DNA of 58,196 nucleotides from a virus. Every line of letters starts with the position of its first letter. Positions within the stretch are counted from its first letter, which is position 1. Where the stretch lies: the IMG/VR virus record IMGVR_UViG_3300007276_000055, positions 1-58,196 of that record; one strand, written 5' to 3'. The notes under the pieces were generated by a model that did no database searches, was not told where the DNA came from, and worked only from the letters and a program-made list of their open reading frames with translations. Of this stretch, positions 2,993 through 58,196 are shown in pieces. Made by a program: the position numbers and the translations under genes.

Positions 2993-3682
2993 ATGGCCGA
3001 TTCTATCCGAGATTTAGCAAACCAAGTGTACGAAGAAGTAGGTATTACCTCTGATGATACAGAGGTAGATATCCGATATATCTATGACTTAATAGGTAAT
3101 CAACGTGCCTTATGGCTCAGAAATGAGTACAATAAGACTCGTAATATTCATCAAGCACTTGTACAAGACCTTAATTGTCTCGAGATGGAGCTCGCAGATC
3201 CTGCAGAGTGTTGTCCGGTAGATTCGAATTGTAAGGCTGTGCGAACAAAACTTACTCTTCCAAGACCGATCGAGTTATATTACACCGATGGTATTACTCG
3301 AGTAGGGCCTACAAACAAATTTCACAAGGAATACAATATGATTCCTTATGATCGGGTACCATGGTTCGGACACGGTAAGTTTAATAAAAGCGCCGTGTAT
3401 AGTGTTTACCTCAACGATCGTATTTATCTCTTATCCCACCGAGATGATGTCGACTTTGTCGAGTACATTAACGTACGAGGGATGTGGGAAGACCCGTTTG
3501 AAATAGCGAATTACGAAAGTTGCGATCCAGAGAAGCCTTGTTGGACAGTCGATTCGCCTTATCCATTAGCTCGCTGGATGTGGGCAGTGCACGTAAAGCC
3601 TATCGTTGTTCAGACTGTGCTTAAAAAACTTTCAGTACCGCAAGACACTGAGAATGATGCCTCAGACGAACAGCGTCAATAA
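2993..3682 (+). CDS. Probable neck/ring virion protein
   Basis: This 229-residue protein begins with a helical region (I-R-D-L-A-N-Q-V-Y-E-E-V-G) typical of head-tail connector adaptors, then has a mixed beta region with the motif Y-D-R-V-P-W-F-G-H-G-K-F and a C-terminal helix. Placement at the head of an overlapping run of genes leading to the muzzle-type protein matches the ring-protein genes of crAss-like phages. Several cysteines (P-A-E-C-C-P...C) are clustered near residues 72-81. I recognise the context more than the sequence; the exact ring identity is not claimed. Its stop overlaps the next ATG. Confidence 0.6.
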   Translation: MADSIRDLANQVYEEVGITSDDTEVDIRYIYDLIGNQRALWLRNEYNKTRNIHQALVQDLNCLEMELADPAECCPVDSNCKAVRTKLTLPRPIELYYTDGITRVGPTNKFHKEYNMIPYDRVPWFGHGKFNKSAVYSVYLNDRIYLLSHRDDVDFVEYINVRGMWEDPFEIANYESCDPEKPCWTVDSPYPLARWMWAVHVKPIVVQTVLKKLSVPQDTENDASDEQRQ

Positions 3683-4209
3683 TGCCAGAAGGTCCAGGTA
3701 AATATAACGCGGACTATGGGAACAAAGACATCCACGCTTTGCTTCAGGAACTTTATCCAGAAGTTAAAATAAGTCGTGGCGAATTATACAACTTGTTGTC
3801 AGACCTTAATCAAGGAATGATAGGCTTAGCAGTCGAACAAGCTGTTAGATTACATTTACCCGGCGCGGGTTATCTTAGTGTGATGAAGTATCGTCCTAGG
3901 TTAATCAACGAAGAGGGTAAACTCATGAAAGAACGTTTGCCACTTGATTATCAGGCATGCTGGAAGTTGTGGGAAGAACAATACCCTAAAAAAACTAGGG
4001 CAGAAATTAAAGAGATCCCTAATAAGGAGCTCCGATTTTTATCGAATCTACATACCGATGGGTATAAGATGCGATTTCACTGGGATAAATACAGTATCCC
4101 TCTTCGAGGGAAGAGTGGTTACATGTTTGTCCCTACAAGAGATAACTCTCGTTGGATCAAGCGTGCTGTAGATAACGGCGCTGATTTCTACGAAAAAACA
4201 AAAGTGTAA
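3682..4209 (+). CDS. Probable neck/ring virion protein
   Basis: The 175-residue product starts MPEGPGKYNADYG and has a helical first third (a segment around L-L-Q-E-L-Y-P-E-V-K-I), a loop L-P-G-A-G-Y-L-S-V and a C-terminal part with L-H-T-D-G-Y-K-M-R-F-H-W-D-K and Y-M-F-V-P-T-R-D. The last pattern is familiar from conserved small structural genes in the neck region of crAss-like phages. It overlaps both neighbours by one base or so, showing tight coupling in a stoichiometric structural operon. The role is inferred from position; no enzyme motif is present. Confidence 0.6.
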   Translation: MPEGPGKYNADYGNKDIHALLQELYPEVKISRGELYNLLSDLNQGMIGLAVEQAVRLHLPGAGYLSVMKYRPRLINEEGKLMKERLPLDYQACWKLWEEQYPKKTRAEIKEIPNKELRFLSNLHTDGYKMRFHWDKYSIPLRGKSGYMFVPTRDNSRWIKRAVDNGADFYEKTKV

Positions 4210-4478
4210 TGTATTTAGAAACAAATGACTACAAATCTTGGTCACAAGAAGGGCCCGCGGAAGAAGGCTTTAAAAAACAAACTGAAGTCGTGGAATTGCC
4301 TCTCAGTGATGGGTCAGCTATGATGTATATCGTGTCTGAGCGTAAATGGAAACCTCAACAAGACTGGGAAGAACAAGAAAAATCACAAACAAAGAAATGC
4401 TACGTATCCGCAGTGAACCCACTGTCAGATGCTTCTACAGCAGCTATATTAAAAGAGATGTTGGGTAAAAACCTCTAA
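4209..4478 (+). CDS. Small hypothetical virion-block protein
   Basis: An 89-residue, Glu/Lys-rich protein with no recognised domain. It starts on the ATG overlapping the stop of the gene before (TAATG) and ends one base before the next start, so it is translated as part of the neck operon. It could be a small structural or assembly protein. No signal peptide, membrane segment or catalytic motif is visible. Confidence 0.65.
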   Translation: MYLETNDYKSWSQEGPAEEGFKKQTEVVELPLSDGSAMMYIVSERKWKPQQDWEEQEKSQTKKCYVSAVNPLSDASTAAILKEMLGKNL

Positions 4479-4479
4479 A

Positions 4480-5331
4480 ATGGATAACGGACAATTCATA
4501 TCATATAAGTCAGTACTAGAACGTCTTCACATGATCCTTAAGATGGATTTCGAACTTGTCCATGCGGATGCGATCGAGATTATCGGTGGGCTCATGCGTC
4601 GTTTAAAGGTACCTTACGCTTTAGAAGATAAGGTTGAAAAGATCTCTATCGAACAGGGCCGTGGTTTTATACCGTGTGATATGGAAGGTATTATCCAATG
4701 TGCATGGATGGGGACCACAAACGGGACTACCTTAGGTAATGTTCCTTCTGTCGTCTTTACCGAAAATGAAGTAGTTGTTGATGAAGATACAGATTACGAC
4801 TGGTCGTTTAATTCTAAAATGATTGTAGAGTATTCGAATACTAATAGTGTGCAATTGTATCCTATGAGGTACTCTCATGATTCTATGCATATGCGATTTC
4901 ATTGCTGTGACTTTGATTTTGACCCATCTTGTAGTATTACTTACCAGATACAGAATGGTACTATATTTACCAACCAAGAAGAAGGATGTGTAGTTATGGC
5001 TTATCGGGCTATTCCTACAGACGAAGATGGGTTCCCAATGCTACCAGACGCTGATGCGTGGATTCTAGCATGTACGTACGAGCTGGCCTTCCACATCTGT
5101 CTTGGACTTCGAAGTGTGAATAAAATAGACGACAACTTTTTAGACCGTATGGATAACCTACGTGTGAAATATATTCGTCAAGCAGCTAACTGGGTACGCG
5201 CCCATCCTACAAAAGATCAATTGGAGGCTTCTACAAATGAAATGACACGTTTCATTAAGAAAAGGTCTCACCATGATAATTTCTTCTCGAATTTCCAAGC
5301 ACCGGAAAGAGAGTACCAATTCCAGAGATAA
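4480..5331 (+). CDS. Probable neck/ring virion protein
   Basis: This 283-residue protein has an N-terminal helical part (residues 1-60), a central beta-rich domain with many aromatic and acidic residues (around Y-D-W-S-F-N-S-K-M-I) and a long C-terminal helix (about 195-245) that includes A-Y-R...A-N-W-V-R-A-H-P. The organisation is like adaptor and ring proteins of short-tailed phages. It sits directly before the muzzle-type gene and shares its TAATG junction with it. Specific family membership is not certain. Confidence 0.6.
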   Translation: MDNGQFISYKSVLERLHMILKMDFELVHADAIEIIGGLMRRLKVPYALEDKVEKISIEQGRGFIPCDMEGIIQCAWMGTTNGTTLGNVPSVVFTENEVVVDEDTDYDWSFNSKMIVEYSNTNSVQLYPMRYSHDSMHMRFHCCDFDFDPSCSITYQIQNGTIFTNQEEGCVVMAYRAIPTDEDGFPMLPDADAWILACTYELAFHICLGLRSVNKIDDNFLDRMDNLRVKYIRQAANWVRAHPTKDQLEASTNEMTRFIKKRSHHDNFFSNFQAPEREYQFQR

Positions 5332-22800: not shown

Positions 22801-25661
22801 TTGTGGATCTTTCGTACTTGAAGGATTTAAAGAAGCTTAAGGAAATGCGTCGTAACATTATTTGGTTGAAAGACCGTAAGGACTTAGATCCGCCGATGAT
22901 TAAAGACGGAAAACTTATCCCGGGACAGATTCTTCTTCCATACAAGTTCCTTAACCTAGTAGGCGGGGATGTTTCGAAGATTGATAAAAAGCTTCTTAAC
23001 ATGATCGGTTACCGTATTCCTAACCAAGGAGACGCCTCTACTGATTTACTTGAAGTAGTAGGATTCCTTCCAGAAGAGTATGGTGATACAGTAATTGCTT
23101 ATGCAGAGATTACCGAAAAAACTGGTAGTGACTTCGATATTGATAAAATGTACATCATGGCCCCTAATTTCACGATGACTGAAGAAGGCTTAATCAAGAC
23201 TCCTTACAATGAAGGAACATCTAAAGATGATGTTAAAGCACGTTACGAGATCTATTCAAAAACATTGGCAACTAAGCATGCCCTCTACGCAGAACTTGAC
23301 AAAGTAGATTTTTGGAATCACCGTTCAAACTTAGTGCTAGACGCGGTTAAAGAAATCCTGAACGCCAAGTTTGCTAAGAATGACAATGCGTTAGCCTTTA
23401 TAGCTATGATTGATAGTACGGAGTACGAAAACTCCAGTATCCTAGACTCCATCAAGTCTTCGAATAACGTAGATATCTTATCGTTTGAGGAGTTCGCTAA
23501 GCTTCCGGTTACTGAACAGATTACTACTGAAGCTCTTCAAAACAGGTTTATGGATATCATGACAGAAGTTCTTTCGGAACCTTCTGGGTACATAAACATG
23601 ATGACTCCATTGGAGTACCGTACCGCGGCTATTAAGAAAGACCTTAATCAAGTGCTAGAGGAATCCAATAGTACTCGAGATATTGATGCTTATGGTTTAT
23701 CAGGACAGATTGATTCCAAGTATGCGTTTGCTGGAGGTAAAGCACAGCTTGGTGAGGTGATGAATTTCCTTCAGGACCACAGTGTGCGCCGTGAGGTAGG
23801 CCGTTTTATCAAAGCCGGACTCATAGACCTTAAAGCTGTAGAAACTCGTTTAGATGGGCGCTATGATGAAAACGGAGTGCCGTTGATGCAGATCTTTTCT
23901 GCGTACGCCTCGCTTCACGTAGATATTGCGACAGATCCTATCATTATCCGTGCAAACTGGTCTCAAGATACTACTAAAGTAGGATTGCTTATGCTGGCTG
24001 CTGGGTTACCTTATTCAAAAGTCGATCGGATTTTAAATCAACCTATTATACGAGAGTACACTAAAAATAAACGACGCTTACGTGCAAAGTCTACTACACC
24101 TATCAAAAACAGTAACGGTAAGAAACTAAGTGCTTTTGAAGTAGCTGCTTTGAAATTTAATGAAGGTCAGAATATTAACGAAAAAGATTTACCAGTAACT
24201 GCTCCTAGTATGTTGACTAACAAAGTTTTAACGAGCCAGTTACAGTCAACAGGTAATGAACAGTTAGGTATCTTAGGTTTATACAAATTGTATGAAGACA
24301 ACGCTAAAGAACTTACTCGAGGTATCCAAAATTCGAAGGTCGACAGCTCGCCGCCTAAACACCTTGTTGACGCATATGTTAAAGCGGACGTACGAGAAAA
24401 GATACAGCAGCATGATACTATAGGTAACTGGGATCAAACTTTTGACCAAACTTTCTTAGGTACTATGTGGAAAAACTCTGTAACTACCCTCATTAACGGC
24501 TTACAGGACATAGCTATTGAAGGTACCCCAGCATTCCAAACAGCTATGAAAGAGTTCATGCATATGTCTGGACAAGATGTTTCAGTAGATGCGGTAGAGC
24601 AGTTCATGGAAGAGCTGTATGGAGCGTTCGCTTCAGGTTCTTCATTAAGCTTAACCGACGCGGAGTTTCAACGAATTTTTATAGGCAGCCAATCAGTGGC
24701 CCATAAAACTGTGGAGTATCAACAACCAGGCAGTCCGCTATACGGAAACGTATTTATTCAGTATCTGAATCCGAGTATTAAAACCGGAGATCACCCATCG
24801 ATAGTCACAATTGATAACAACAATCAAATTTCAAATGACGTTATCAACAATTTAAGAAACCAGTGGGTACAGCTTTATCGCCACGAAGATCCAGCTATTC
24901 GCGCTTATGCTTCTGACTTAGCTAAAGCGGCTTACCACACAAGTAATTTCAGGTATTCTACAAGAAGTATGTTGAAGTTACTGCCGGATCCTATCCTTCA
25001 AGACTTAGGGTATACAAAGTATGTAGAGGAGGCTATATCTGGGAAGTTACAGGAAAGTAATTACTTATTGCCTATGATTAACCAAGTCTATAAGCACTTG
25101 TCAGACAACTCATCTTTGGTTCCTTTTGTTCCGTTTAAAGATATGCAGACAGTTCCAGTAGCTAACGAGTATAAAGACTATTTTCACAAAAGTCGCGTAG
25201 CATTAGTCGATGTCGAGAATAACCCAAAACTGGTTATTAAAAGCGATGGGAAAGATTTACTGCCTAACATGAAGCCCTTTATCTCCACCAAACTAAAAAC
25301 AGGTAGTGAAGAGCAAGGGAATCGACGTCAAATAGATGCTACCATGATGTTCGTCGGTGTAACCAACAGTAAAGGCCGACAAAAAGCAATTTATGTTCGC
25401 ACAAATACTCTAGGGTACTTCTCGGAAGGGAAGCGAGTAACAGAGTACAGCTTCTTCGAGTCCGGTAAGACTTCGAAGTTCTCTAAGAATAATGTACTTT
25501 TGTCTAAGGAGCAAAGAGGACTTATAGGGCAGTTCCTTAAGGAGAGTGCTGAAATAGCTAGTAGAGTCCAAGAAGATATGACTTTCTCAGCAGAACGTAG
25601 AGCACTGTCCCCGGAAAACGAAGAGAATCAAAAAATCAGTAAATTCTGTAGCACATCATGA
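13854..25661 (+). CDS. Giant virion RNA polymerase fused to nuclease-like and zincin-like domains
   Basis: This 3935-residue protein is one uninterrupted frame. In order I see: a charged N-terminus with a Gly/Ala-rich hydrophobic region (about 199-238) suited to membrane passage; a long helical part; an acidic linker near 760-820 with two G-G-W-G repeats; a PD-(D/E)XK nuclease-like core (G-T-V-D at Asp1379, then Y-D-M-K with Asp1393 and Lys1395); a zincin-like H-E-F-G-H (1663-1667); and a large C-terminal region with S-D-F-D-I-D-K (D-x-D-x-D at 3093-3097), the metal-binding signature of the crAss-like/YonO/QDE-1 class of RNA polymerase. Known crAss-like polymerases are virion-packaged and transcribe early genes after injection; the phi14:2 enzyme is about 2180 residues, so this one is much longer. 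Cleavage by its own or the neighbouring zincin-like domain is possible but not shown. Confidence 0.85.
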   Translation: MGKQKRDYSDPTYEEFLSAVNEDPQNLEPPTTLDGVEVEPFIPPQSEEEFNALVEEVKASDNIGNNFSGSADLSGGRFGIGDTNLDDDGVSLYQVPHLEDLRAQSQGGMRLLGNALTNFGIEAAAGVLNFAGTIMDFEQMGDLINGTEMEFSNFFTDAVNGAKDSLVQDDGAMFKIYQTKAAQQGFAPTDSTWWAKGAGTFGTSVGLMAPALAVGFLSGGALGAVGGAVAGATVSRYVENTMEAFEVTDRLYKDFIREGMPEEQAREKAGAQGRKVWIANSAMLPIDIAQFIMSAGTMKAASKMGLGMAKAIGKDAATQIPQEAFEEFYQHVTAEEAVSEGLGKSGFYDQGFTYRLGDYVRDEQAWNAAFWGGVGGGVFSAASPMIQKKMEKTALYNGLLNQFRQKGDAVQFEKTSATMAYSTALQDLENTGSLDKSISTLDAIAQDDKLEPEARDRVTSLRTDLEEINKEIPAWQDQGYSKAEIANLSKLSMERRGIQRARKQLDSEISDLESSMIENDAMTPGALEVKSAQTKAEALSELQRFLTLKERNQAAQEQQMVTDGKSPAEIAAFQETRKHTKTILGQLKKDVPAAAKAAEEAKAAFIESEEFNNDVDTLEGQTLSTIENKYFEAISRRQQEDYALGRVNRDLKKAGTRSSKKATDQQAETEKKKTEDAVKQAAKDESSIEEINKLFKRNDPITYTDEEGNEVKGTFQGTSQSGVAVKGEDGVTRPIAKDKFSQAIEEKQASLEGTTEDINKTAREKTNESPGGWGAGTVEETAAPSSEAKGGWGEGTTEGATKPEADPTTEPEVGVDNKVVDEAHRGPGEVSTTPENKSIASEKKRPTTIAWISANNPKYSGEQHDADNKATTEFFEADNTTEGLEARVVISNEIQDWDTQDSPLDVDDVDIQLNVLDDQGNEIKINDGQVRGWVHKTNFEGYKTEAQKKQIRTIRQNMIDAVRAGNEVRVKLGPKKGGQIWYSSEVNTLEDIFKKSYEDINVYVVDNTGQLMPGNPTVTAMPDHTGKIAVVFEGYDGQLIAATGGTAKYTPALADAAMIVLRNATNYLGKSTITPKLAKYLREHESTEVSDVGTIFNLDPTKGDLPTLNELLNFFVVEGSRTEGNKNALKAKKGEGVTYVSNGKTRLIDNKSTPEETQMFKEHLLSLGFPVQAQHVQTPAGRKWYYQHGIYNFKLKPTAKGVPIHTPTIHFSENIEAIAPKEKATQTSKASSMDSRMDEVKAVSQTFSLSKDEKKYTRVVDGKTLTYERVTQFYKGESTEKTPKPVMISGGIIGDKNDEIWRAFFNGEIKTAEDIRKYKFQKKSIKGQKFGKNLTDAQLETFLNRLKALQTDFEKQGMKVLATDVVVFDDVEMVAGTVDLLLYNDKGDVWIYDMKAMKGNKFTEHYGKDPNTKYNATFDGGMSDKEAHSNQLSAYRALLHNAYGMTASKLAILPTVVSYNPGDTDINFSDVFGTDEQEIRFEVLNPYPVAIKDKVVHHADSDRVLTIRKGKVTKDVTKKSADDIMDGLLGDGYSSTLDDSISKERQMDTQTLDTILPYSTRRVSTMEETITGLLTLGDADVMTDMYAMQKAAAFGGSTFMQEFGSKVKVIVRSGREMSARPSMAGKDASRTIGIYEPETNQVVMNKDLIPYATPNMLARTLLHEFGHAGTIHVMHIYETDRTLLSGLAQDYVSTFYEMYDNLQLTDSEKAKTHALKSPQEFVAEFFGNQKFRQWSVERLVANNEKATGNILRRLFTFFKELFRFGFKAAIKAQRPVTADQLMGEFDEAFSASINDIRVAARGLGGYYAQEVQEPGEATPSELDAQETNEVLDFMQLVFFTQLQGAKSSVVNLSLDFGQVREKLATLSEEAEAPIANVFKRAVLPENYAILVGRLNDRLRQAGIVINEEAESSMKEMGEYDKASFTINRKQNANLDVKLMVASLPEMDAKVDSEGNYTYTAAKGELLGLGKLAPANATWYAIQHLLKNLTITEGNSDVYSTMREKIRQFTPFYPSLAVLGNWLDNAPEYRRTQFMKAFNLQEITFILYQFNGYGKDLSVRRMDTTSVSKRNNLLEMWKNGFTTAFFQTNEKNEVKLTSNAKIAVERFNELAKETSRLRKGGKLPKEHLADWATFLKDSGIGIDPRTLEYGATLRNESNPADGLQQLINTTFRYVFAKSNYGNPLAKLVNEGVSVDENGDIPNPIKHADSESSLKSLVELEMMFRPQMNESTVLGADGDSYWVFQTYDYTNLLIDELKANPKMVDSLLQIPYHKHSSILKLMQKYGTDIIKVDTWNNARRMNAADKGTKYSRLERPDDLLLKMWGYTKGVLPYINQADKSRHYEISLDFKKIKERNGGKEVILLPETAMRKDGTWALGRSVPLMASLFLNELNASRLAWEQVFGDNKLPDNELIEDYHFVRDESGNMVKTLPNGLPTGSVFYSDIFPELSPGTGLAVSLDLYDSNGRPNVANSEEYYAGTTGGGSKLIPSFQKAFEPLVLAKILREKNRLLQIAEDDGLIEKTDSGYDNLIIPEELITESGTLENLFMTVAARSIYANAEITSLFYGDRRVFSKMKKDSDGAYMQGVFSSSLSKRVTGATAVKGRLRIDGKRVRKTYKAAVIADMITFSDKLLSEEHLREVAKATGESFSAIKRIFSDQGKTKNEQTGSGYDNNNAADAQAWITLDRAKEIFEGEGLWDDQMEDAYESLKAGKLKQSDVKLFSKAVNLAPQKGAYFAPMVINNQRVSVMDKYSQAILYPGLTKGTGLDGLRLAMERKVDGQNAVDEVITRSGSKGAVQKVATIFDSDGNMLDQATIEKELFTTDRENKHWGRQVEMSPKALNDNTLVNTQVRKNVFANVDREYVYESGRKGGEILAEKNAVISELSNRGLAEVSALYGTDPDGRFSEPAIRKVMRDEMVANNAPQDLIDSLDGTTNLNALPQDRKTLWYRIAAGVVKNTVKLKQLGGGFIQMSIAGISDTTEAGVVDLSYLKDLKKLKEMRRNIIWLKDRKDLDPPMIKDGKLIPGQILLPYKFLNLVGGDVSKIDKKLLNMIGYRIPNQGDASTDLLEVVGFLPEEYGDTVIAYAEITEKTGSDFDIDKMYIMAPNFTMTEEGLIKTPYNEGTSKDDVKARYEIYSKTLATKHALYAELDKVDFWNHRSNLVLDAVKEILNAKFAKNDNALAFIAMIDSTEYENSSILDSIKSSNNVDILSFEEFAKLPVTEQITTEALQNRFMDIMTEVLSEPSGYINMMTPLEYRTAAIKKDLNQVLEESNSTRDIDAYGLSGQIDSKYAFAGGKAQLGEVMNFLQDHSVRREVGRFIKAGLIDLKAVETRLDGRYDENGVPLMQIFSAYASLHVDIATDPIIIRANWSQDTTKVGLLMLAAGLPYSKVDRILNQPIIREYTKNKRRLRAKSTTPIKNSNGKKLSAFEVAALKFNEGQNINEKDLPVTAPSMLTNKVLTSQLQSTGNEQLGILGLYKLYEDNAKELTRGIQNSKVDSSPPKHLVDAYVKADVREKIQQHDTIGNWDQTFDQTFLGTMWKNSVTTLINGLQDIAIEGTPAFQTAMKEFMHMSGQDVSVDAVEQFMEELYGAFASGSSLSLTDAEFQRIFIGSQSVAHKTVEYQQPGSPLYGNVFIQYLNPSIKTGDHPSIVTIDNNNQISNDVINNLRNQWVQLYRHEDPAIRAYASDLAKAAYHTSNFRYSTRSMLKLLPDPILQDLGYTKYVEEAISGKLQESNYLLPMINQVYKHLSDNSSLVPFVPFKDMQTVPVANEYKDYFHKSRVALVDVENNPKLVIKSDGKDLLPNMKPFISTKLKTGSEEQGNRRQIDATMMFVGVTNSKGRQKAIYVRTNTLGYFSEGKRVTEYSFFESGKTSKFSKNNVLLSKEQRGLIGQFLKESAEIASRVQEDMTFSAERRALSPENEENQKISKFCSTS

Positions 25662-28600
25662 TATGTCCTAATGTAAACAGCCAGGAATGGCAGCACCTTG
25701 TAACTGCGGTAGGCGAAGATCTCGCTTATTATTTATGGGACGCCAATAACGGTAACCCAATGTCTATGACTCCGCAAGGAGAATTATCGCCATTGTACGA
25801 CCAAATGCTGGACTATACTAACGGTAATGCTTTCGCTGCGTCAAAGCTTAAAGCGAGTGCTTACGATATCGCTTACCTACAAAGTAATGAGTGGCGTAAG
25901 GGTGCTGAGCCTAAGCTCGAAGTTAAAAGTAATGGCTCTTTGTACTTAGTACAGGATGTCGAAGGAGTTCCGTTTTACTACCGTATTAAGGCCCCAAGAA
26001 CTACTACTAGTTTAAACTTCAATGATGCTGCTTCTATGGATGCGTATAAAGCTCCAGAGAACGAAGAAGACTTCAACACGAAGCTTGATATGATGCAAAA
26101 AAACTTCGCAGCATTTGACATAGACTTACAATTCGAAGGAGTGAATCCATCGATCGTGGCCATTAACGGCCGGATTCAACTTAACATGCCTTATCCTAAC
26201 ATATTAGCAGGGAAAGACAGTTTACTTCACGAGCATGGCCACATTTTAATCGAAGCTTTAGGTGGTATGAAAGATGACCACATAGCATTCGCTAGGCGTC
26301 AACTTGCAGGTACCAAGCTTGAAGAAGAGGTTACCAAAATGTATCGTAGCCTAGATCAGGAATCTCTGGACAAAGAAATTATAGCACAAGCGGTAGGTAT
26401 GAAGGCCGCGGAGCTTTTTGATGACTTAATGAAGCAGCGTAAATGGAAAGCTTGGCTTAAAGTTTACTTAAATCGATTGAAAGCTACACTAGGACTTAAT
26501 CATGACGCAGTCATGGAACTAAGTCGCAAACTTCTTTTAGACGAATTAGCCTACACTGAGACCGACTTCCAAGCGGATGATAAGGTTTTAGGTACGCCAT
26601 TCGAGCAACGTCAAACTGTTGAGGGGGTCCTAGAGAATTTAATGGAACGAGTGCAGAGTTTGTATGCCCACTGGCAGCGTTTTAAAAACACAGACGCTAT
26701 TGAACGTATGGGTCAGATGATTGAAGACATGGTAAACTTTAATGACATTCGATCGGCTATCGTGTACACCCAGAATGCAGAGCGAACTACGCTTAGGATC
26801 GAAAAAGACTTTGAAGAAATAGAAGCTAAACTCAAAGCTGGGGGATACATTACGGACGCAGAGTTTGAAAAACTTAGCCACCACCTCAAAAACATGCAAC
26901 AGTTTGCTGGAGCTTTTAACTTGATTCCGGAAATTCAAGAATTGTTAGAAGCAGGTGAAATAGAATTCGGTAAGAAAGACTTAGTAGAGCTCGACTTTAA
27001 AGCCCCGGTAAAGACTTTAGGAGCAGTAGATGCCCGTCTCAAAAAGCTAGACAGGATGTACCAACGTATAATTCAAGAGTACACGGTCCAGCGCCACTAT
27101 AAGGATATTGACATTGTGGAAAAAAACTGGGGACGAAAATTCGAAAAAGAATACCACAAGCTCTACCGTAGCGCTGATCGTAAACGTCTAGGTAAAGAGG
27201 AGTACGATCGACGTAAACTAGCATTCATTAAGGAAAAGCTGGGAGAGAACCAGGCGACTATTGATGCCGAGTCTCAACAGTATTTACGTAATATGCTAGA
27301 TAGACATATTGGATACGTTAGTGACATATCTTCACTTACAGAATGGGCCTCGGATCCAAAATCCATTACTGATTCGGTTATGCAGATAGCCATAAAAATC
27401 ATGGATAGAATCGATGAGGAAGTGCGCTTCGAGTTTCAACAAGCACTTAGAGAACCTGTGGAAGCTTTTCAAAAATTTACAGCAGAACGAGGTAATCCTT
27501 TAAATCAGGAGGAGTTGTACAAAGGATTGTACGAAGAAATCGACGGAGAAAAAACCGGATTTTACAACGGTAAGTTCCTAAGCTCCTTCTTGACTAATAA
27601 AAACGTATTGTGGAATGCTTATGCGGAAGCTAAAGAAGTAGATCCAAACGGTCCTAAAGAATTAGAAGCAAAAGCTGCATTCGAAGAGTGGAAGCTTGAG
27701 AACGAAGAACAACCTTATACAGCTGAGTTCTTAAAAAGGGTAACTGAGAATCGTGAACAATTTGTTCGTACAGAGGAGTATGTAAGGCTGAGTAAAGAAC
27801 AGGCTAAAATCAGAAAGCGCTACATAATTAATGGAAGTTTCGCTTATGATAGACTCACTCCCGTAGACAAAGAAGCTTGGGACGCTAATGAAGCTGCACT
27901 TAAAGTAGAGCGGGAAGTTACTAAAGCGGAGAATAAAACAGTACAAGAGGAATTTTTCAAGCTGTGGAAGTTTGTAGAAACTGCTCGTTACGAAAAAGTA
28001 AAGGACGAAAAACTTTTAGAAGGTACTGAGGCATACAACGAATGGTATGTGGCTAATCATGATAAAGGTAAGGCTAAGCCCGCCTGGACTAAACTAGTGC
28101 CAAAAAGTGATGCTAACAATAATCCGAATTATCGGGAACATTATACGACTCCGAAGTCGCAATGGTTAAACCCAGCTTGGGGGAACATGAAACAAATGAT
28201 GGAGAACGAAAACAGTTCTGCGGGACAAATGTTGAAGTTCTTAAAAGAGAATGCTAATCGTGTGGATAAGGAATACGCGGGGAAAAGTCATCGTCGTAAG
28301 TATCTTACAAACGATGCTATGGACGACCTGATAGGGATTCCGAAAGCGGAAAAACAGACTATCGAAAGGATAGCTGAGTCAGGCGTGCGTGCGGTATTTT
28401 GGGAAGGGTTAAAAGACAAACTGCAAAAAAGATCTACAGACACAGATCTAGAGATGGAAACTATGGATAACCCCGAGTGGGAAAAGTTCGTTAAAGTAGT
28501 TGTTGATGAGAATCACAAAGTAAAGCGATTCATTCCTATCTACTTCCGAAACAGTCTAGCTAATAAAGCTGACCAATCTTATGACTTACTTTCACTAGAA

Positions 28601-30193
28601 ATGATGGACTTGTATGCGGCTTTAAACTACAGCCGTAAAAGCAAATCCGAAGCAGACATCATGATCATTCAAGATGCTATGGCTAATCGAAAAGTAGCGC
28701 AGCAGAAAGGATTTAAGTATATGGTGAACTCTATCCTACCTTGGATGAAGGGCGAAAACTTTAAACCGGTAAATATTGAGGGAGTGCACTCTAATGTTTA
28801 TCAAGCCTTAGCTTCTACAGTAGAGAATCGATTATACAACATCGGTGTACAAGATGCTGGGTCCGTCAAAATATTTGGAAAAAAGATTTCATTAAATAAA
28901 CTATCCGACACTATTGCCGGATTCACTGGTTCCGTCATGCTGACCTTCAACTGGCTGTCTGCAGGAGCTTCTGGACTACAGGGTAATATCCTGAACATGT
29001 CGGAAGCTTTTGGAGGCGTTAATATCAACGCGAAGAATATTAAAGCAGCGTACGCTTTGTATGCTGCTGATTTTGGGAATGTCATTGCAGATGCTGGGCG
29101 TGTTGTACATAGAGCTAAGACTAACGCTTTACTCGAGTACTTCAATCCGTCTGGTGCTTATCAAGGATTAGAAAGGCGTTTCTCTCAAAACAATATTATT
29201 CGACAAACAGCCGGTGCTGGTCTACATGCATTAAACTTTACCAACTGGCAGGAGCATCAAGTGCAAGGTACTTTAATGTACGCATTGCTTGATAGTTATG
29301 AAGTAGCTACTAAGTCCGGAGAAACTATGCCTTTACACGAAGCTTTGGTAGTAGCCTCTAATGGTACTATTAGCTTTAATCCTGAAATCTCGCTGTCAGA
29401 TAAGGAAATGAAAAGCTTACTGCTAGAGGCTTTCCGTAAGATTAAAGAAGTTACGAAGCAAAAGCATGGTAATTATGATCCAGCTAACAAAGCAAAAATG
29501 CAGCGAGTTATTGCTGGGCAACAAACTAGTATGCTACGTAAGTGGTTAGTACCAGGAGTACAACATCGCTTTCTCAATCTACGTTCCTTCAGTAAGGACT
29601 TCGAAGACATGGACGCCTACGAGTTAAGTTATAACGAATCTTCTGGGCAATTTCAAGAAGGTATTTACACGACTACTTTAAGATTCTTACGCCAGTACCA
29701 CAAAGAATTATTGGGACTTAAGTTTAAAGTAGCAGGAGCTGCCTGGGACGAGCTTACAGACGTGGAGCGAGGTAATATTCGCCAAACTGTATTTGAAGCT
29801 GGTATGATGGGCGCTACCTATTTAGCTTTTCTTGCTTTCTTATCGTTAGCAGAGGATGACGACGAATGGGCATATGTCCCAGCATTCTTCATGAGAAGAT
29901 TATTTGGAGAACTTAGCTTCTATGTATGGCCGCCAGAGGCTTTCAAGATTTTACATTCGCCTGCAGCGACTGTATCTATGCTCGAGAGATTATCAGTGCT
30001 TGCTGTGCAAGCTATTTATGATATAGGAATGGTAGCTACAGGAGGCGAAGCTACTCGATACGTGCAGAAACCGCACAAGGGGGAATTAAAATTGTGGAGA
30101 CGTACTAAACAAGCTTTACCGATCGCATCTCAATTAGAACGAAACGTTCAGAAGTCTCTGGAGTACCAACGTCGGATGATGGTTAACCAATAA
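25658..30193 (+). CDS. Giant zincin-like internal virion protein
   Basis: This 1511-residue protein overlaps the polymerase gene by ATGA. It has a zincin-like H-E-H-G-H motif at 191-195 within L-L-H-E-H-G-H-I, a long charged coiled-coil region (about 300-950), a Gly/Ala/Ser hydrophobic stretch near 1080-1110 and a strongly hydrophobic helix near 1378-1396 (around T-Y-L-A-F-L-A-F-L). Crass-like phages carry a zincin-like metalloprotease gene beside the polymerase, which supports ejection with it. It may cut cargo proteins or host envelope proteins. It is the last plus-strand gene of the block; the transcript runs toward the tRNA zone and its terminators. Confidence 0.75.
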   Translation: MICPNVNSQEWQHLVTAVGEDLAYYLWDANNGNPMSMTPQGELSPLYDQMLDYTNGNAFAASKLKASAYDIAYLQSNEWRKGAEPKLEVKSNGSLYLVQDVEGVPFYYRIKAPRTTTSLNFNDAASMDAYKAPENEEDFNTKLDMMQKNFAAFDIDLQFEGVNPSIVAINGRIQLNMPYPNILAGKDSLLHEHGHILIEALGGMKDDHIAFARRQLAGTKLEEEVTKMYRSLDQESLDKEIIAQAVGMKAAELFDDLMKQRKWKAWLKVYLNRLKATLGLNHDAVMELSRKLLLDELAYTETDFQADDKVLGTPFEQRQTVEGVLENLMERVQSLYAHWQRFKNTDAIERMGQMIEDMVNFNDIRSAIVYTQNAERTTLRIEKDFEEIEAKLKAGGYITDAEFEKLSHHLKNMQQFAGAFNLIPEIQELLEAGEIEFGKKDLVELDFKAPVKTLGAVDARLKKLDRMYQRIIQEYTVQRHYKDIDIVEKNWGRKFEKEYHKLYRSADRKRLGKEEYDRRKLAFIKEKLGENQATIDAESQQYLRNMLDRHIGYVSDISSLTEWASDPKSITDSVMQIAIKIMDRIDEEVRFEFQQALREPVEAFQKFTAERGNPLNQEELYKGLYEEIDGEKTGFYNGKFLSSFLTNKNVLWNAYAEAKEVDPNGPKELEAKAAFEEWKLENEEQPYTAEFLKRVTENREQFVRTEEYVRLSKEQAKIRKRYIINGSFAYDRLTPVDKEAWDANEAALKVEREVTKAENKTVQEEFFKLWKFVETARYEKVKDEKLLEGTEAYNEWYVANHDKGKAKPAWTKLVPKSDANNNPNYREHYTTPKSQWLNPAWGNMKQMMENENSSAGQMLKFLKENANRVDKEYAGKSHRRKYLTNDAMDDLIGIPKAEKQTIERIAESGVRAVFWEGLKDKLQKRSTDTDLEMETMDNPEWEKFVKVVVDENHKVKRFIPIYFRNSLANKADQSYDLLSLEMMDLYAALNYSRKSKSEADIMIIQDAMANRKVAQQKGFKYMVNSILPWMKGENFKPVNIEGVHSNVYQALASTVENRLYNIGVQDAGSVKIFGKKISLNKLSDTIAGFTGSVMLTFNWLSAGASGLQGNILNMSEAFGGVNINAKNIKAAYALYAADFGNVIADAGRVVHRAKTNALLEYFNPSGAYQGLERRFSQNNIIRQTAGAGLHALNFTNWQEHQVQGTLMYALLDSYEVATKSGETMPLHEALVVASNGTISFNPEISLSDKEMKSLLLEAFRKIKEVTKQKHGNYDPANKAKMQRVIAGQQTSMLRKWLVPGVQHRFLNLRSFSKDFEDMDAYELSYNESSGQFQEGIYTTTLRFLRQYHKELLGLKFKVAGAAWDELTDVERGNIRQTVFEAGMMGATYLAFLAFLSLAEDDDEWAYVPAFFMRRLFGELSFYVWPPEAFKILHSPAATVSMLERLSVLAVQAIYDIGMVATGGEATRYVQKPHKGELKLWRRTKQALPIASQLERNVQKSLEYQRRMMVNQ

Positions 30194-30264: not shown

Positions 30265-30338
30265 CACGAGAGGTAAGACTCAAACTTACAACCTTCGGTT
30301 TTGCAGACCACTGCCTACATCCCCTCGGCCACACTGAC
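30265..30338 (-). tRNA. tRNA-Cys (GCA), acceptor stem weak
   Basis: On the minus strand the arms are in order: a GCC/GGC D stem with a GG-containing loop, anticodon loop CTGCAAA (GCA) and a perfect five-pair T stem GTAAG/CTTAC with loop TTTGAGT. The acceptor is poor: of seven positions about three are Watson-Crick, two are G.T and two (T6.T67, C3.C70) are mismatched. The discriminator base reads G, whereas bacterial tRNA-Cys usually has U. It may be decayed or wrongly ended by my reading. No CCA is encoded. Confidence 0.55.
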
Positions 30339-53705: not shown

Positions 53706-53895
53706 TAGGTATTAGGACTTTTGTAGAATATGACTTGTTACCAATTTGGTAACACATGTAATACTCTTTAAGGTTTTCTTTGGCCAAACTATCCATACGG
53801 TGTTTGAAAAGGGTTAAATCATCTACCACTAGAGGCGTAGGGGACATACATCCCCCAGCCAATAGAGCTATAATTAAAATAGTAATCTTATGCAT
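53638..53895 (-). CDS. Small lipoprotein
   Basis: The 85-residue product starts M-H-K-I-T-I-L-I-I-A-L-L-A-G-G-C, a lipoprotein signal peptide with lipobox L-A-G-G-C (Cys16). The mature part is hydrophilic with a helix near L-F-K-H-R-M-D-S-L-A-K-E. It overlaps the macro-domain gene upstream by eight bases and the helicase gene downstream by 68, so the three are co-expressed. An envelope role during infection is likely; the exact function is unknown. Confidence 0.7.
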   Translation of the reverse strand: MHKITILIIALLAGGCMSPTPLVVDDLTLFKHRMDSLAKENLKEYYMCYQIGNKSYSTKVLIPIAHEFRNKNRKATSVLPQMVPE

Positions 53896-54562
53896 CAGTT
53901 ATTTGATCGCTTTGGTGCTCACGTATACGCTTTTCAAGCTGACGTGGTGGAATAAACTCCACTACAGTAACTCGAAAGTACGGCACTAATTCTTCAATTA
54001 CGAGGGGTTCTACTTCTTCCCATGTAGCGCCGCCAATACCGCAGCCGATTAATGGTATTCCTAGTCTAAAATCGTTTCCGCCCCATTCGGTCGCAAATTT
54101 ACGAAAACTTAGTCTACAAGCATCTACATCAAATGTAGCTCCTGGAGTAGTTTGTGTGTAGAAATTAATTACCCCACATAAATCAACAAGTTTTGTCTGC
54201 CTTTCAACCATCATAGATAGCCAGCAAGAATAGTTTCCTAAGCGACGTATCCCAGTTGATATAGGATAATCTCGATCAGCTTCGTAAGCTCTCGGAAAAG
54301 CTTCTTTAACAGCAAGTGCTATTCCAGCACCCATGACATTTTGGCAGTTAGCTCCGTGGCCTATAAAATCAAATTCACCTTTTAAAGCAAGTTCGATGAG
54401 GTCACCTTGTACGGTATTATAACTCATGATTTTTGAGAGGTTAAGTGTTTCTGCTGCGTTTTCTTTTTTACGAAAGGAGTGGCGTAATTCAAAGAGTATA
54501 ATCCCCCCAAACATAGCAGAAAGTGATAAGACGATTATAACGTCAATTATTGATAGTTCCAT
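53888..54562 (-). CDS. Membrane-anchored macro-domain protein
   Basis: From ATG 54562 the 224-residue product has one TM helix (about residues 5-26, I-I-D-V-I-I-V-L-S-L-S-A-M-F-G-G), a short basic linker and then a macro domain: V-Q-G-D-L-I, G-H-G-A-N-C-Q-N-V-M-G-A-G-I-A, and P-L-I-G-C-G-I-G-G-A. Macro domains bind or hydrolyse ADP-ribose compounds. The frame stays open to 54637, but that extension lies inside the polymerase gene. A cytoplasmic domain held at the membrane is unusual for phage macro proteins. An internal ATG before S-Y-N-T-V could also produce the soluble form. Confidence 0.8.
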   Translation of the reverse strand: MELSIIDVIIVLSLSAMFGGIILFELRHSFRKKENAAETLNLSKIMSYNTVQGDLIELALKGEFDFIGHGANCQNVMGAGIALAVKEAFPRAYEADRDYPISTGIRRLGNYSCWLSMMVERQTKLVDLCGVINFYTQTTPGATFDVDACRLSFRKFATEWGGNDFRLGIPLIGCGIGGATWEEVEPLVIEELVPYFRVTVVEFIPPRQLEKRIREHQSDQITDA

Positions 54563-54563
54563 G

Positions 54564-56558
54564 TTATTTTTTCCAATGATTCGCAATCTCTGCGTCTGCA
54601 GGGATAGGAACCGATTCACAAAATCGTGCTGCCGCATTTTCCATACAATCTTTAAGCACCACTTTGACCTGTTCTTGGATCACCGCGGGGCATTCTAACT
54701 GTATTTCATCATGCGCCATAACTACAATCTTAACTTCGTTTATGTAATCGTTTTCTTGAATCCAACGCATTACGTAAATAGCAGCCAGTTTGGTCATGTC
54801 TGCAGCTGTACCTTGAATAGGAAAGTTTAGTCCCTTTCTCTGAAACGTGCCTTGAAGCTGAAAATACTCTTTCACCAAAGGCTTAAATTCCTGCTGAAAT
54901 TCGAAGTTATCCTCGGCTTTAGCTGTCCTGTATCTCTCCCAAAAACCCGTAGCACTTACTTGCTTCTTTAAGCTTAAGTATTTGTCATATCCGCCAAGGA
55001 ATGAACGTCTACCAGACTTACTGTTAATCAGTACGTAACCGTGTTTTAATGGAAAATCAGCCGCTTTTTTAAAGTAGCTTTTCAGTCCCGGAAATTTATC
55101 CATGAAGTATTTATAGGCTGCATCAGCTACTTCAATAGCAATACCGAGATTATCAGCAATGGTCTTACCATTACCTCCGTACGGTATTGCAAAAGTTCCA
55201 GGTTTCACAAACTGTCTTTTTTCAGGATGCAGAGCTTTAATCTTTTGATGAGTAAGACTTCGCAACTCTGGATAGACTGCCTGTGCCATCAAACAGTGTA
55301 TATCCTTGGTAGGATCGTTCACATAAGCAAGGTACTCTCTATCACGACTCATGTCCGCTAGTACTCTAGTTTCTTGACCAGAGTAATCCGCTCCTACAAT
55401 AACATTACCGGCTTCTGCTGTAAAGCATTTTCTAGTATGGTCTGCAGGTAAGTTCTGAATATTCGGATCATCTGAAGAAATACGTCCGGTATCCTTAATT
55501 TGCCTAAACGATGAATGAATTCTACCTGTCAAAGGTTTAATGTACTCGAGATAATTTTCTCCGTAAGTAGAAACTACTTTGGCAGCTTTTGAATATGCTT
55601 CGTAAAGGTTTAAGATAGGAAAATTTGCGGCGAACTTCATAATGAACTTGAGCTCCACAGTATGCTTTTTGGTCTTCGAATTAAGAGTATCTATACCTAG
55701 TCCTTTAAACAACATTTTGACTTGTTGGTCAGAGCCCCAATTGATAATTACACCTTCGGTACCATCTGCAGGTTCCCCCTCAGCGTTAAACATTTCCCCT
55801 TGGTAACTGATAAACTGCGAAGTAGGATGTTTTTTTAAAACATAGTCATTAAGTTCTTGAATGGCTTTTGACAAGTTTATCTTGTCTTGAACCATTTTTT
55901 CTCTCCATTTCTTCTGATCTAAATGGATACCACCGTGACTCATGTAAGTCATCGGTACTACAAATTTGTTTTCCAGGTTGGCTACTCTAAGAAGATCTTG
56001 TTTTTCAAGCGCTTTAGATTGCGCTTCATGGAGTTTATGTAAGTACTTTACATCATCTGCAGCATAGACTACTACTCTAGTAGAAAGTCCTTCTCGATGA
56101 ATGTGGCCCCGAACACTCTTATCTAATTGAACTTTTAAGTATCGATCAGCACAAGATGCAAGCCCACGATAACCTTTAAACAGCAGTAAACCAGTTGTAA
56201 GTACAGATTCTTGAAGAAATGTATCAATACATTGCATTGGATAAACGCCATGATGGAATAGAAATCGTAAATCAAAGTTCAAGTTATGTCCTATGATCGT
56301 AGATTCTTCGATAATGTCTTTAAAAGCTTTAAGCGGTACAGTAGTATTGTCTATGACATACTGATCAGAGCCGCCATCAGAGAGCTGCGTACAGAGTAGT
56401 TCGCAACTAAATGGGTCTAATCCTTTAGTTTCAGTATCTAAAGCCAAGAGAGGAGCCCCTTTAAGGGCTTCTCTAGCTTTTTCAACATTCACTTTACGTA
56501 TTAAATCTGGCGAGTACTGGTCAAATAACTCAGTCTGCTCCGTTATTAGATAAATCAT
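54564..56558 (-). CDS. Family A DNA polymerase with 3'-5' exonuclease
   Basis: The 664-residue enzyme has DEDD exonuclease motifs (L-D-T-E at 40-43, H-N-L-N-F-D with Asp96) and the polymerase motifs T-G-R-I-S-S-D-D-P-N-I-Q-N (357-369), A: D-Y-S-G-Q-E-T-R (Asp391), B: R-Q-F-V-K-P-G-T-F-A-I-P-Y-G (448-461), and C: M-A-H-D-E. There is no 5' nuclease domain, as in T7-like replicases. I use ATG 56558; the frame reaches 56600 but within the gene upstream. It is the replicative polymerase of the block. Confidence 0.93.
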   Translation of the reverse strand: MIYLITEQTELFDQYSPDLIRKVNVEKAREALKGAPLLALDTETKGLDPFSCELLCTQLSDGGSDQYVIDNTTVPLKAFKDIIEESTIIGHNLNFDLRFLFHHGVYPMQCIDTFLQESVLTTGLLLFKGYRGLASCADRYLKVQLDKSVRGHIHREGLSTRVVVYAADDVKYLHKLHEAQSKALEKQDLLRVANLENKFVVPMTYMSHGGIHLDQKKWREKMVQDKINLSKAIQELNDYVLKKHPTSQFISYQGEMFNAEGEPADGTEGVIINWGSDQQVKMLFKGLGIDTLNSKTKKHTVELKFIMKFAANFPILNLYEAYSKAAKVVSTYGENYLEYIKPLTGRIHSSFRQIKDTGRISSDDPNIQNLPADHTRKCFTAEAGNVIVGADYSGQETRVLADMSRDREYLAYVNDPTKDIHCLMAQAVYPELRSLTHQKIKALHPEKRQFVKPGTFAIPYGGNGKTIADNLGIAIEVADAAYKYFMDKFPGLKSYFKKAADFPLKHGYVLINSKSGRRSFLGGYDKYLSLKKQVSATGFWERYRTAKAEDNFEFQQEFKPLVKEYFQLQGTFQRKGLNFPIQGTAADMTKLAAIYVMRWIQENDYINEVKIVVMAHDEIQLECPAVIQEQVKVVLKDCMENAAARFCESVPIPADAEIANHWKK

Positions 56559-56883
56559 AAGCGATGTTTTTAAAGGTAATGTCGTGCGTACTGAGGTCAT
56601 CTTCGTTTAATATGCCAGTTTCGACTAATGCGCTAATTCTATAATTGAAGACAGCGTCGTCTAGCATAGCACAAGTTTCAGGATCACATAACGCATATTC
56701 TCCGTTAGGCATCAGTTCTCTCCAAGAGCCATTCGAGATAAACACCGCTAATCGATGTAATTGCGTTTTGCCTATGAAGAATTTTTTTCGTGAAAACCAC
56801 AGCTTAACTATGTACTTATCCTGTTCTTCATTATAAATAGGTAGCACATTAGCAATGTGGTCATAGTACCATGTAAGTTTCAT
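56530..56883 (-). CDS. Hypothetical protein upstream of polymerase
   Basis: From ATG 56883 (M-K-L-T-W-Y-Y-D-H) the product is 117 residues, aromatic at the start and acidic at the end (N-E-D-D-L-S-T-H-D...N-N-G-A-D). The frame stays open to 56913. It overlaps the polymerase start by 29 bases. No family recognised. The region 56884-56978 upstream has only a hairpin (CAGGGT...ACCCTG near 56930). Confidence 0.6.
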   Translation of the reverse strand: MKLTWYYDHIANVLPIYNEEQDKYIVKLWFSRKKFFIGKTQLHRLAVFISNGSWRELMPNGEYALCDPETCAMLDDAVFNYRISALVETGILNEDDLSTHDITFKNIAYDLSNNGAD

Positions 56884-56978: not shown

Positions 56979-57390
56979 TGGTGGAGGCGCCGAGATTCGA
57001 ACTCGGGTCCATATTGTACTCACTACAATTTTTCTACATGTTTAGGATAGAGCCAAGCTCTCCATGGATCAAAAACTTTTTGCGGTGTATAGGACTCACA
57101 CTTAGATAGAGGTTTACGATCATTATCTCAATTTTGTGAACACGCCCTACCACTAACTTAGTGGCCAAGACAGGCTTCTTAGGCAGCCATTGCAACCTCA
57201 CGTACTTCTGTCTCCGCTGGGCGGAAAGAGATTACGTTGTTTTTCTCGGCAGCCAAAACGTCAGCTTTGGTACCTAGTGTTGAATCTACGTTGCCGTTTA
57301 TTCATGATAATACGTATTTTTAGAGTGTCAATATCATTCACTCACATGCTTACAATTCTAACGTTACAACTGTCTATTCCAATCGCCCCC
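56979..57390 (-). ncRNA. ssrA: tmRNA (transfer-messenger RNA)
   Basis: The 412-base gene has 5' GGGGGCG pairing with 3' CGCCTCC (one G.T), then A73 and an encoded CCA. The 3' end holds a perfect T arm (CCGAG/CTCGG with TTCGAAT loop). Between the ends is a tag frame ending G-C-N G-C-N stop: the last codons (57182 to about 57253) read AAEKNNVISF...then...REVAMAA before TAA at 57179-57181. The hydrophobic A-A end is what ClpXP and related proteases recognise. With SmpB from the host it would rescue stalled ribosomes. The resume codon is not certain, so the tag is up to about 24 residues. Confidence 0.9.
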
Positions 57391-57399
57391 ATAAGTTTG

Positions 57400-57407
57400 C
57401 AAAAATA
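57400..57407 (-). promoter_or_regulatory. -7 box for tmRNA
   Basis: On the minus strand TATTTTTG lies nine bases before the tmRNA 5' end, the same distance as for the tRNA-Met promoter, and both leaders end in ACTTAT. A TTG lies about 22 bases upstream. The box overlaps the A/T-rich side of the groEL terminator. Confidence 0.5.
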
Positions 57408-57441
57408 AAAAAAGCCCCAACAATACTGTCAAGGCTCTTTT
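57407..57441 (-). terminator. Terminator after groEL
   Basis: AAAAAGCC (57409-57416) pairs with GGCTCTTT (57433-57440), with one G.T, around a 16-base loop; on the minus strand the stem is followed by T residues. It ends the groEL transcript 22 bases past the stop codon. Confidence 0.65.
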
Positions 57442-57462
57442 TATTCCACTAATTATTCAACT

Positions 57463-58196
57463 TTACATCATTCCGGGCATGCCTCCTCCGAATCCAGGAT
57501 TCTGAGGAATTGCTGGAACGTTACTATCAAATGGTTCGTCTACAACGACACACTCAGTAGTAAGTAATACGCTAGCTGCCGAAGCAGCATTTTCTAAAGC
57601 AACACGTGTTACCTTCGTAGGATCGATAACTCCAGACTCTAAAAAGTTCTGGTATTCGTCAATCTTAGCGTTGTAGCCAAAGTCATCTTTGCTTTCTTTC
57701 ACTTTTTCCACGATTAAAGCTGCCTTCGAACCGGAATTAATAAGAATCTGTTCAAGAGGTACTTGTAGGACATTTTTAAGGATTTCAATACCCTTATTCT
57801 GATCTGCATTATCTCCTTTGACCTTATCCAATGAAGCGATAGCTCTAATAAGAGCTACACCTCCACCAGGTACGATACCTTCTGCTACAGCAGCTTTAGT
57901 AGCACTTAAAGCATCGTCTACACGTTCCTTCTTTTCACGCATTTCTACTTCAGTAGGTGCACCAATGGAGATAACTCCTACACCACCTGAAAGTTTAGCT
58001 ATACGCTCTTCTACTTTTTCTTTGTCCCACAACGATTCAATGTTTTTCAACGAAGCTTTCATGCTCTTAATACGAGCAGCTATAGCTTTTGAATCACCTG
58101 CACCATCGATGATAGTACAAGAGTTTTGTGAGATTTCTACTTTTTCAGCGGTGCCTAAGTCTTCTTCTTTGACGTCTTCTAGTTTAATACCAGTAA
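57463..58196 (-). CDS. groEL: GroEL chaperonin, 3' part (gene runs off the window)
   Basis: The visible 243 residues correspond to roughly the last 45 percent of GroEL. The frame is open to the right edge (T-G-I-K-L-E-D-V at the border), then K-L-S-G-G-V, R-V-D-D-A-L with the conserved ATPase Asp, G-I-V-P-G-G-G-V-A-L, and the C-terminal G-F-G-G-G-M-P-G-M-M. All these match bacterial chaperonin consensus. The gene reads in the same direction as the replication block and is followed by a terminator and the tmRNA gene. groES is not visible. It would help fold phage virion proteins, possibly the giant ones. Confidence 0.95.
   Translation of the reverse strand, partial: TGIKLEDVKEEDLGTAEKVEISQNSCTIIDGAGDSKAIAARIKSMKASLKNIESLWDKEKVEERIAKLSGGVGVISIGAPTEVEMREKKERVDDALSATKAAVAEGIVPGGGVALIRAIASLDKVKGDNADQNKGIEILKNVLQVPLEQILINSGSKAALIVEKVKESKDDFGYNAKIDEYQNFLESGVIDPTKVTRVALENAASAASVLLTTECVVVDEPFDSNVPAIPQNPGFGGGMPGMM

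Follow-up and report, generated by a model that had tools for sequence, protein, structure and literature searches.

A one-piece tmRNA with a 38-residue tag in a crAss-like phage contig, and long tags in other phage tmRNAs

Introduction

Phage-encoded tmRNAs have been described in the mycobacteriophages Bxz1, Catera and Cali and in Bacillus phage G (PMC4131195), and a TLD-only form from phage DS6A was reported to inhibit the endogenous tmRNA (PMC4131195, PMC11915505). A published range for the tags encoded by tmRNAs is 8 to 35 residues (PMC11431127), the commonest length being 10 and the shortest 2 (PMC11915505). The present analysis concerns one linear virus contig of 58 kb (the window, which here means the whole stretch of 58,196 nucleotides), in which a phage-borne tmRNA with an unusually long tag had been predicted from the letters of the sequence. 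To our knowledge, phage tmRNAs in the literature are usually noted just as present or absent.

Results

The tmRNA gene and its parts

The covariance search proposed as a check in the original prediction returned a match to the Rfam tmRNA model RF00023 of 76 bits (E 8.7e-28), well over the gathering score of 47 bits and spanning the model from end to end, at exactly the predicted coordinates and on the minus strand. It was the sole match above the cut-off in the whole record (57390..56979), and ARAGORN made no call for this gene. The acceptor halves, T arm, encoded CCA and tag end REVAMAA followed by UAA, all of which had been predicted, were found. Their order, 5' acceptor, tag, then T arm and CCA, is not that of a permuted (two-piece) gene. 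The phage tmRNA of the window is real and its tag has 38 residues; the features of the gene are as follows.

56979..57390, minus strand: one-piece tmRNA (ssrA) gene, 412 nt, RF00023 match over model positions 1-374
57384..57390, minus strand: 5' strand of the acceptor stem, GGGGGCG, 7 bp with CGCCUCC, G3:U included
56983..56989, minus strand: 3' strand of the acceptor stem, CGCCUCC, partner of GGGGGCG
56979..56981, minus strand: encoded CCA end, from the sequence
56990..57006, minus strand: T arm CCGAG-UUCGAAU-CUCGG, from the sequence and the Rfam alignment
57344..57349, minus strand: 5' strand of helix P2, GCAUGU, partner ACAUGU at 57036-57041
57036..57041, minus strand: 3' strand of helix P2, ACAUGU, partner GCAUGU
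57304..57343, minus strand: pseudoknot PK1, stems GAGUG/CACUC and AUGAUA/UAUCAU, both found
57293..57295, minus strand: resume codon GGC, preceded by AATAAAC, gene position 96, Bacteroidota-type
57179..57295, minus strand: tag frame GNVDSTLGTKADVLAAEKNNVISFRPAETEVREVAMAA and stop UAA, open for 38 codons
57253..57270, minus strand: hairpin CCAAAGC/GUUUUGG within the tag frame, 7-bp stem
57167..57214, minus strand: predicted P5-like helix GAGACAG/CUGUCUU around the tag stop codon, 7-bp stem

A G:U third pair in the acceptor stem is the alanine identity element of tmRNA. P2 and PK1 precede the resume codon, as the tmRNA family requires, and PK1 can also be drawn from other bases (GAUG/CAUC and UGAUAU/AUAUCA) in another phage tmRNA, that of contig L078. 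The tag region itself folds, with a hairpin at 121-138 and a helix at 156-163/192-199 of the gene, and the Rfam alignment places P5/PK2 across it with low posterior. On the 3' side of the tag stop several stems are possible in this one sequence (the PK2-PK4 region), and the stretch from the stop to CATG is shorter than in host genomes (141 nt vs 171-218).

Length of the tag and comparison with hosts

The tag was counted as 38 codons because the resume codon is GGC at 57295, in a host-like position and context. The length of about 22-24 codons given in the original prediction was too small: no resume codon stands there at a host-type position, and reading from GGC 57295 meets no stop before the 38 codons are complete, so that the tag is longer still than the prediction had it. 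The frame begins with a Gly codon of the Gly/Ala type used for resumption, with A at -4, and its UAA stop lies inside the 7-bp P5-like helix after the degron-like end VAMAA. The remaining two frames from the resume site end after 2 and 10 codons (AT and QRRFNTRYQS, each then a stop), and an open frame of at least 30 codons with a hydrophobic-Ala-Ala end occurred by chance with a frequency of 1.5e-4 (20,000 dinucleotide-preserving shuffles). Since the published range is 8-35, a length of 38 residues is slightly past it and not a proven record.

An earlier set of host genomes had been chosen by tag pattern and served for the context of the resume codon; it had no use for a length distribution, and therefore an unselected sample of 79 Bacteroidota-phylum (GTDB) genomes was taken, which gave 78 tmRNAs with an ARAGORN tag. 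In 76 of the 78 the tag had 9-10 residues and ended in -AA, which bears out the earlier figure of 8-11 codons for Bacteroidota; the two exceptions are apparently ARAGORN miscalls. The resume codon lay at gene positions 90-103 in 76/78, in contexts such as TTAAAC-GGC and ATAACT-GGC. With 28-29 residues more than the host tags, that of the window has roughly four times their length, is not of the host kind (9-10 residues, like GE(N)NYALAA or DYSYAMAA), and its likeness to the 78 host tags is limited to the -AMAA end. A YAMAA end is common among Bacteroidota and Chlorobiota tags, and the window end VAMAA is close to it.

Phage context of the locus

The genes that place the tmRNA in a phage are these.

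2993..5331, plus strand: crAss tail ring proteins 2 and 1 (PF25702, E 4e-30; PF24228, E 2e-35)
54564..56600, minus strand: phage DNA polymerase gene, downstream of the tmRNA (phrog_17, E 5e-98)
57391..57450, minus strand: upstream stretch with a GC-rich inverted repeat and T run (groEL end) and TTG-N22-TATTTTTG
57463..58062, minus strand: groEL, partial, running toward the contig end (PF00118, E 2e-25; 73 viral relatives)

With genes for the crAss tail ring proteins 1 and 2, the contig is recognisable as a fragment of a crAss-like phage, and the context is firm. The contig also encodes helicases, ribonucleotide reductase, thymidylate synthase, rIIB-like proteins, ligase, dCMP deaminase and several tRNAs; the ring proteins, the DNA polymerase, the reductase, the synthase and the rIIB-like proteins together confirm that the tmRNA is phage-borne, as predicted. 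The host is presumably a member of Bacteroidota, since the phage is crAss-like and the resume codon is Gly. The tmRNA has groEL on one side; on the other comes first a short ORF and then the polymerase gene. Read by eye, TTG-N22-TATTTTTG upstream of the tmRNA resembles a Bacteroidota promoter and may act as one; a scan with the consensus promoter gave no match in 57391..57450. Searches of the 58-kb window for smpB, clpP and a ClpX zinc domain gave nothing, so host SmpB is presumed.

A near-identical contig from another sample (L228), with identical polymerase and reductase proteins, ends shortly before the tmRNA would come. The annotated phage records yielded no similar tmRNA, DNA comparison gave no close relatives, and no tag homologs were found in PDB, Pfam or phage records. 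The original prediction had named an identical gene in host chromosomes as a sign of contamination; such an origin was considered and is unlikely, because annotated phage records hold no similar tmRNA and every sampled host tag is short and unlike that of the window.

Other features of the window were recorded. A fourth tRNA-like gene (RF00005, 35.4 bits), absent from the ARAGORN list, lies near the Met tRNA at 30265-30338 on the minus strand. The structural genes are followed by two giant ORFs (13854-25661 and 25658-30193, plus strand), which encode 3935 and 1511 aa; in crAss-like phages giant proteins in this place are often parts of the virion RNA polymerase. Next to the DNA polymerase gene, a protein of 249 aa (53888-54637, minus strand) has a weak Macro-domain match (PF01661, E 5e-4).

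Long tags in other phages

Pattern scans of viral contigs with a tag caller, together with cultured phages, gave more than 30 distinct phage tags of 15-34 residues. Long, family-specific tags are thus common among phage tmRNAs and the window is not unique; the scans sample the existing tags and give no rate, because some viral contigs carry host-like tags (prophages or host flanks). Two more groEL-bearing phage contigs, L078 and L079, have the tags ANKNIISQDSRNFANQVEAKIISLVRNEYVAIAA (34 residues) and DEMSTMTFDDLMAFVGADYAVAA (23), L003/L078 being another groEL-bearing phage with a long-tag tmRNA. Other long tags have 34 (L273 and L405), 31 (L317/L388), 24 (L395) and 21 residues (the L241 family, GNVLNKMETLGLLRGSEVTVA and variants), and the scans further gave GDVFANATVGHFVTEGATVAA, AKSEFDFAPSVAEADAFLKAAGFVDAELLAA, AEDNTDSILAEAEYIFNNSDEFLGGVEEEYLMAA and AKEENNVISPVFGFSNHEVLEAVA. 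When 16 loci were checked against Rfam, all 16 scored over the tmRNA cut-off, 13 with the one-piece model and 3 with permuted forms.

Among annotated phages, Cellulophaga phage Calle_1 has a tag of 30 residues, Chryseobacterium phage MA9V-3 of 17, crAss-like phages of 13-15 and cyanophage S-CAM1 of 21. The Calle_1 length is that given by context; ARAGORN starts later, at 22 residues, and misses 8. The deposited tmRNA feature of MT732432 (424-783) begins about 52 nt inside the Rfam/ARAGORN gene (372-733). Permuted-type tmRNAs were seen in cr7_1, cr124_1, cr50_1, cr272_1, cr273_1, MA9V-3 and S-CAM1 (records L433, L434, L427, L429, L430, L431 and L436), the RF04321 match having been tested for L431, L433 and L436. 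The tags of the L241, L229 and L256 families and of Calle_1 (-VGV) have -VTVA, -VVA or -VGV ends in place of -AA, which may be poorer ClpXP degrons.

A 330-kb phage (L418, the phage of L314) carries its own smpB (PF01668, E 9e-58) and a tmRNA with a tag of about 30 residues; among the phage records smpB was found only there. ClpP-like genes were present in 9 of 28 phage records and may be head-maturation proteases. GOLLD RNA (RF02032) lies at L078 2548-2970 (256 bits) and L241 6680-7086 (322 bits), in each case at most a few kb from the long-tag tmRNA.

Constraint on the tags

The 21-residue family gave dN/dS of 0.27-0.57 (Nei-Gojobori), and in one pair the synonymous sites were saturated at only 10 nonsynonymous differences in 46.8 sites; judged from these codon differences, the family is under constraint at the peptide level. 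A codon test needs a close relative, which the window tag lacks, and therefore segment sharing among unlike phage tags was tested against shuffles. The most widely shared segment beat shuffled tags in six settings (p 0.0025-0.022), and with 6-residue words the top seed was every time the window's NNVISF or KNNVIS. The motif had been noticed before the test and the statistic is the maximum over every possible seed; the 36 tags of the test set are possibly of shared ancestry, so common descent may contribute. Matches to the window stretch in other phage tags are KNILSF, RNIISL, ENNVIS, NNIVAF and NNIVDY, and L395 encodes a stretch of the KNNVIS/NNVISF type with different third positions (AATAATGTTATTTCT vs AACAACGTAATCTCT). 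Because the tag region folds, part of the conservation of the tag could be RNA structure. The pattern N[IV][IV]S[FL]..R may resemble the tail at the C terminus of alphaproteobacterial SspB, which binds ClpX.

Discussion

The window gene is probably a working phage tmRNA, which rescues ribosomes through host SmpB and adds a 38-residue tag composed of a host-type degron and a phage-specific extension; its expression, charging, use of SmpB, degradation of its products and the role of the extension are what we infer. The RNA would be processed like a tRNA during infection and charged with alanine, the G3:U pair and CCA being present. Host SmpB would bind it and bring it to ribosomes stalled on broken mRNA, where translation would resume at GGC, add 38 residues and the charged alanine, and end at UAA inside the P5-like hairpin. 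ClpXP-like proteases would then recognise VAMAA as a C-degron of the host type, and the preceding residues, about 30, would be a peptide specific to the phage whose sequence itself is what is retained. The role that we favour for this extension is that of a handle, either a contact for an adaptor or protease or a flexible spacer, which would alter how efficiently phage-era products are cleared. It is plausible, as far as the tag sequence can tell, that such a tag redirects proteolysis in infection; it is simpler to expect that tagged products are degraded by the host pathway, because VAMAA is close to ordinary YAMAA tags. A stronger claim, which we regard as decidedly tentative and on balance doubtful, is that NN[IV][IV]-S/A-F is a conserved internal motif of phage tags, present in the window and in phages of Bacteroidota, of cyanobacteria and of other hosts, and that selection in phages has made it a handle for some protease, adaptor or other partner in the host, so that rescue would be rewired beyond a mere boost.

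The long tag might instead be a neutral by-product of a functional tmRNA, the stop having moved downstream into the former PK2 with only the AMAA end of any importance. This is a possible reading, if a somewhat unlikely one: the region can form a PK2/P5-like structure where Rfam puts PK2, and the stop-to-CATG stretch is short (141 nt vs 171-218 in hosts), but long tags occur in many unrelated phages, one family is constrained as a peptide, and the internal shared stretch exceeds shuffles. Nor was there a trade-off between the length of the tag and that of the later part among 50 viral-contig tmRNAs (Spearman 0.17, p 0.24).

We consider it improbable that the gene makes a decoy or dominant-negative tmRNA, which would occupy host SmpB or ribosomes and slow normal tagging, its long, poorly degraded tag shielding phage proteins. 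The inhibition of endogenous tmRNA reported for the DS6A TLD-only form (PMC4131195, PMC11915505) and the several phage tags that end in -VTVA, -VVA or -VGV instead of LAA agree with such a role, but the window gene has kept every part for full trans-translation, and its AMAA ending is an ordinary one for degrons of Chlorobiota and of some Bacteroidota. That the locus is a decayed or misassembled gene, a host ssrA fragment or relic within a chimeric contig, is very hard to credit. It does lie close to one end of the linear contig of 58 kb, beside groEL, ARAGORN did not call it and no second assembly covering the tmRNA was found; against this, all tmRNA parts are intact, the tag is unlike any sampled host tag, the flanking DNA polymerase is that of a phage, and the groEL-bearing phage L003/L078 also has a long-tag tmRNA.

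A 38-residue phage tag thus stands beside host tags of 9-10 residues, and the survey found such long tags to be common in phages. As tags so unlike those of the host occur in lineages with culturable members (Calle_1 and MA9V-3), degradation, the protease and the effect of the extension are directly testable.

As compared to bacterial ssrA (RF00023; hosts with GENNYALAA), the window gene is alike in acceptor, T arm, P2 and PK1, and it shares with Bacteroidota ssrA the position of the Gly resume codon, the stop in a P5-like helix and the -AA end; it differs from the latter in its tag (38 residues vs 9-10), in the shorter stretch after the tag and in its location in a phage. Cellulophaga phage Calle_1 (MT732432, L428) also infects a Bacteroidota host and has a one-piece tmRNA (RF00023, 86.6 bits), whose 30-residue tag GNNTNAVNAQIEANMEAVNAILNLEVAVGV likewise starts with GN but is otherwise unlike the window tag and ends in VGV; the passages of the describing paper that a text search returned make no mention of the length or sequence of this tag (PMC8776804). 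The permuted tmRNAs (RF04321) of cr7_1, cr50_1, cr272_1 and MA9V-3 come from crAss-like or Bacteroidota phages and their tags begin with GN, one of them, GNVNNIVDYTNVA, having NN[IV]V in common with the window tag, but they are two-piece genes with tags of 13-17 residues, whereas the window gene is one-piece with 38. The tmRNAs of Bxz1, Catera, Cali and Bacillus phage G are one-piece and phage-encoded like that of the window, although their hosts are actinobacterial or Bacillus and the tag sequence is different. The Bxz1 tag is long too, at about 25 residues.
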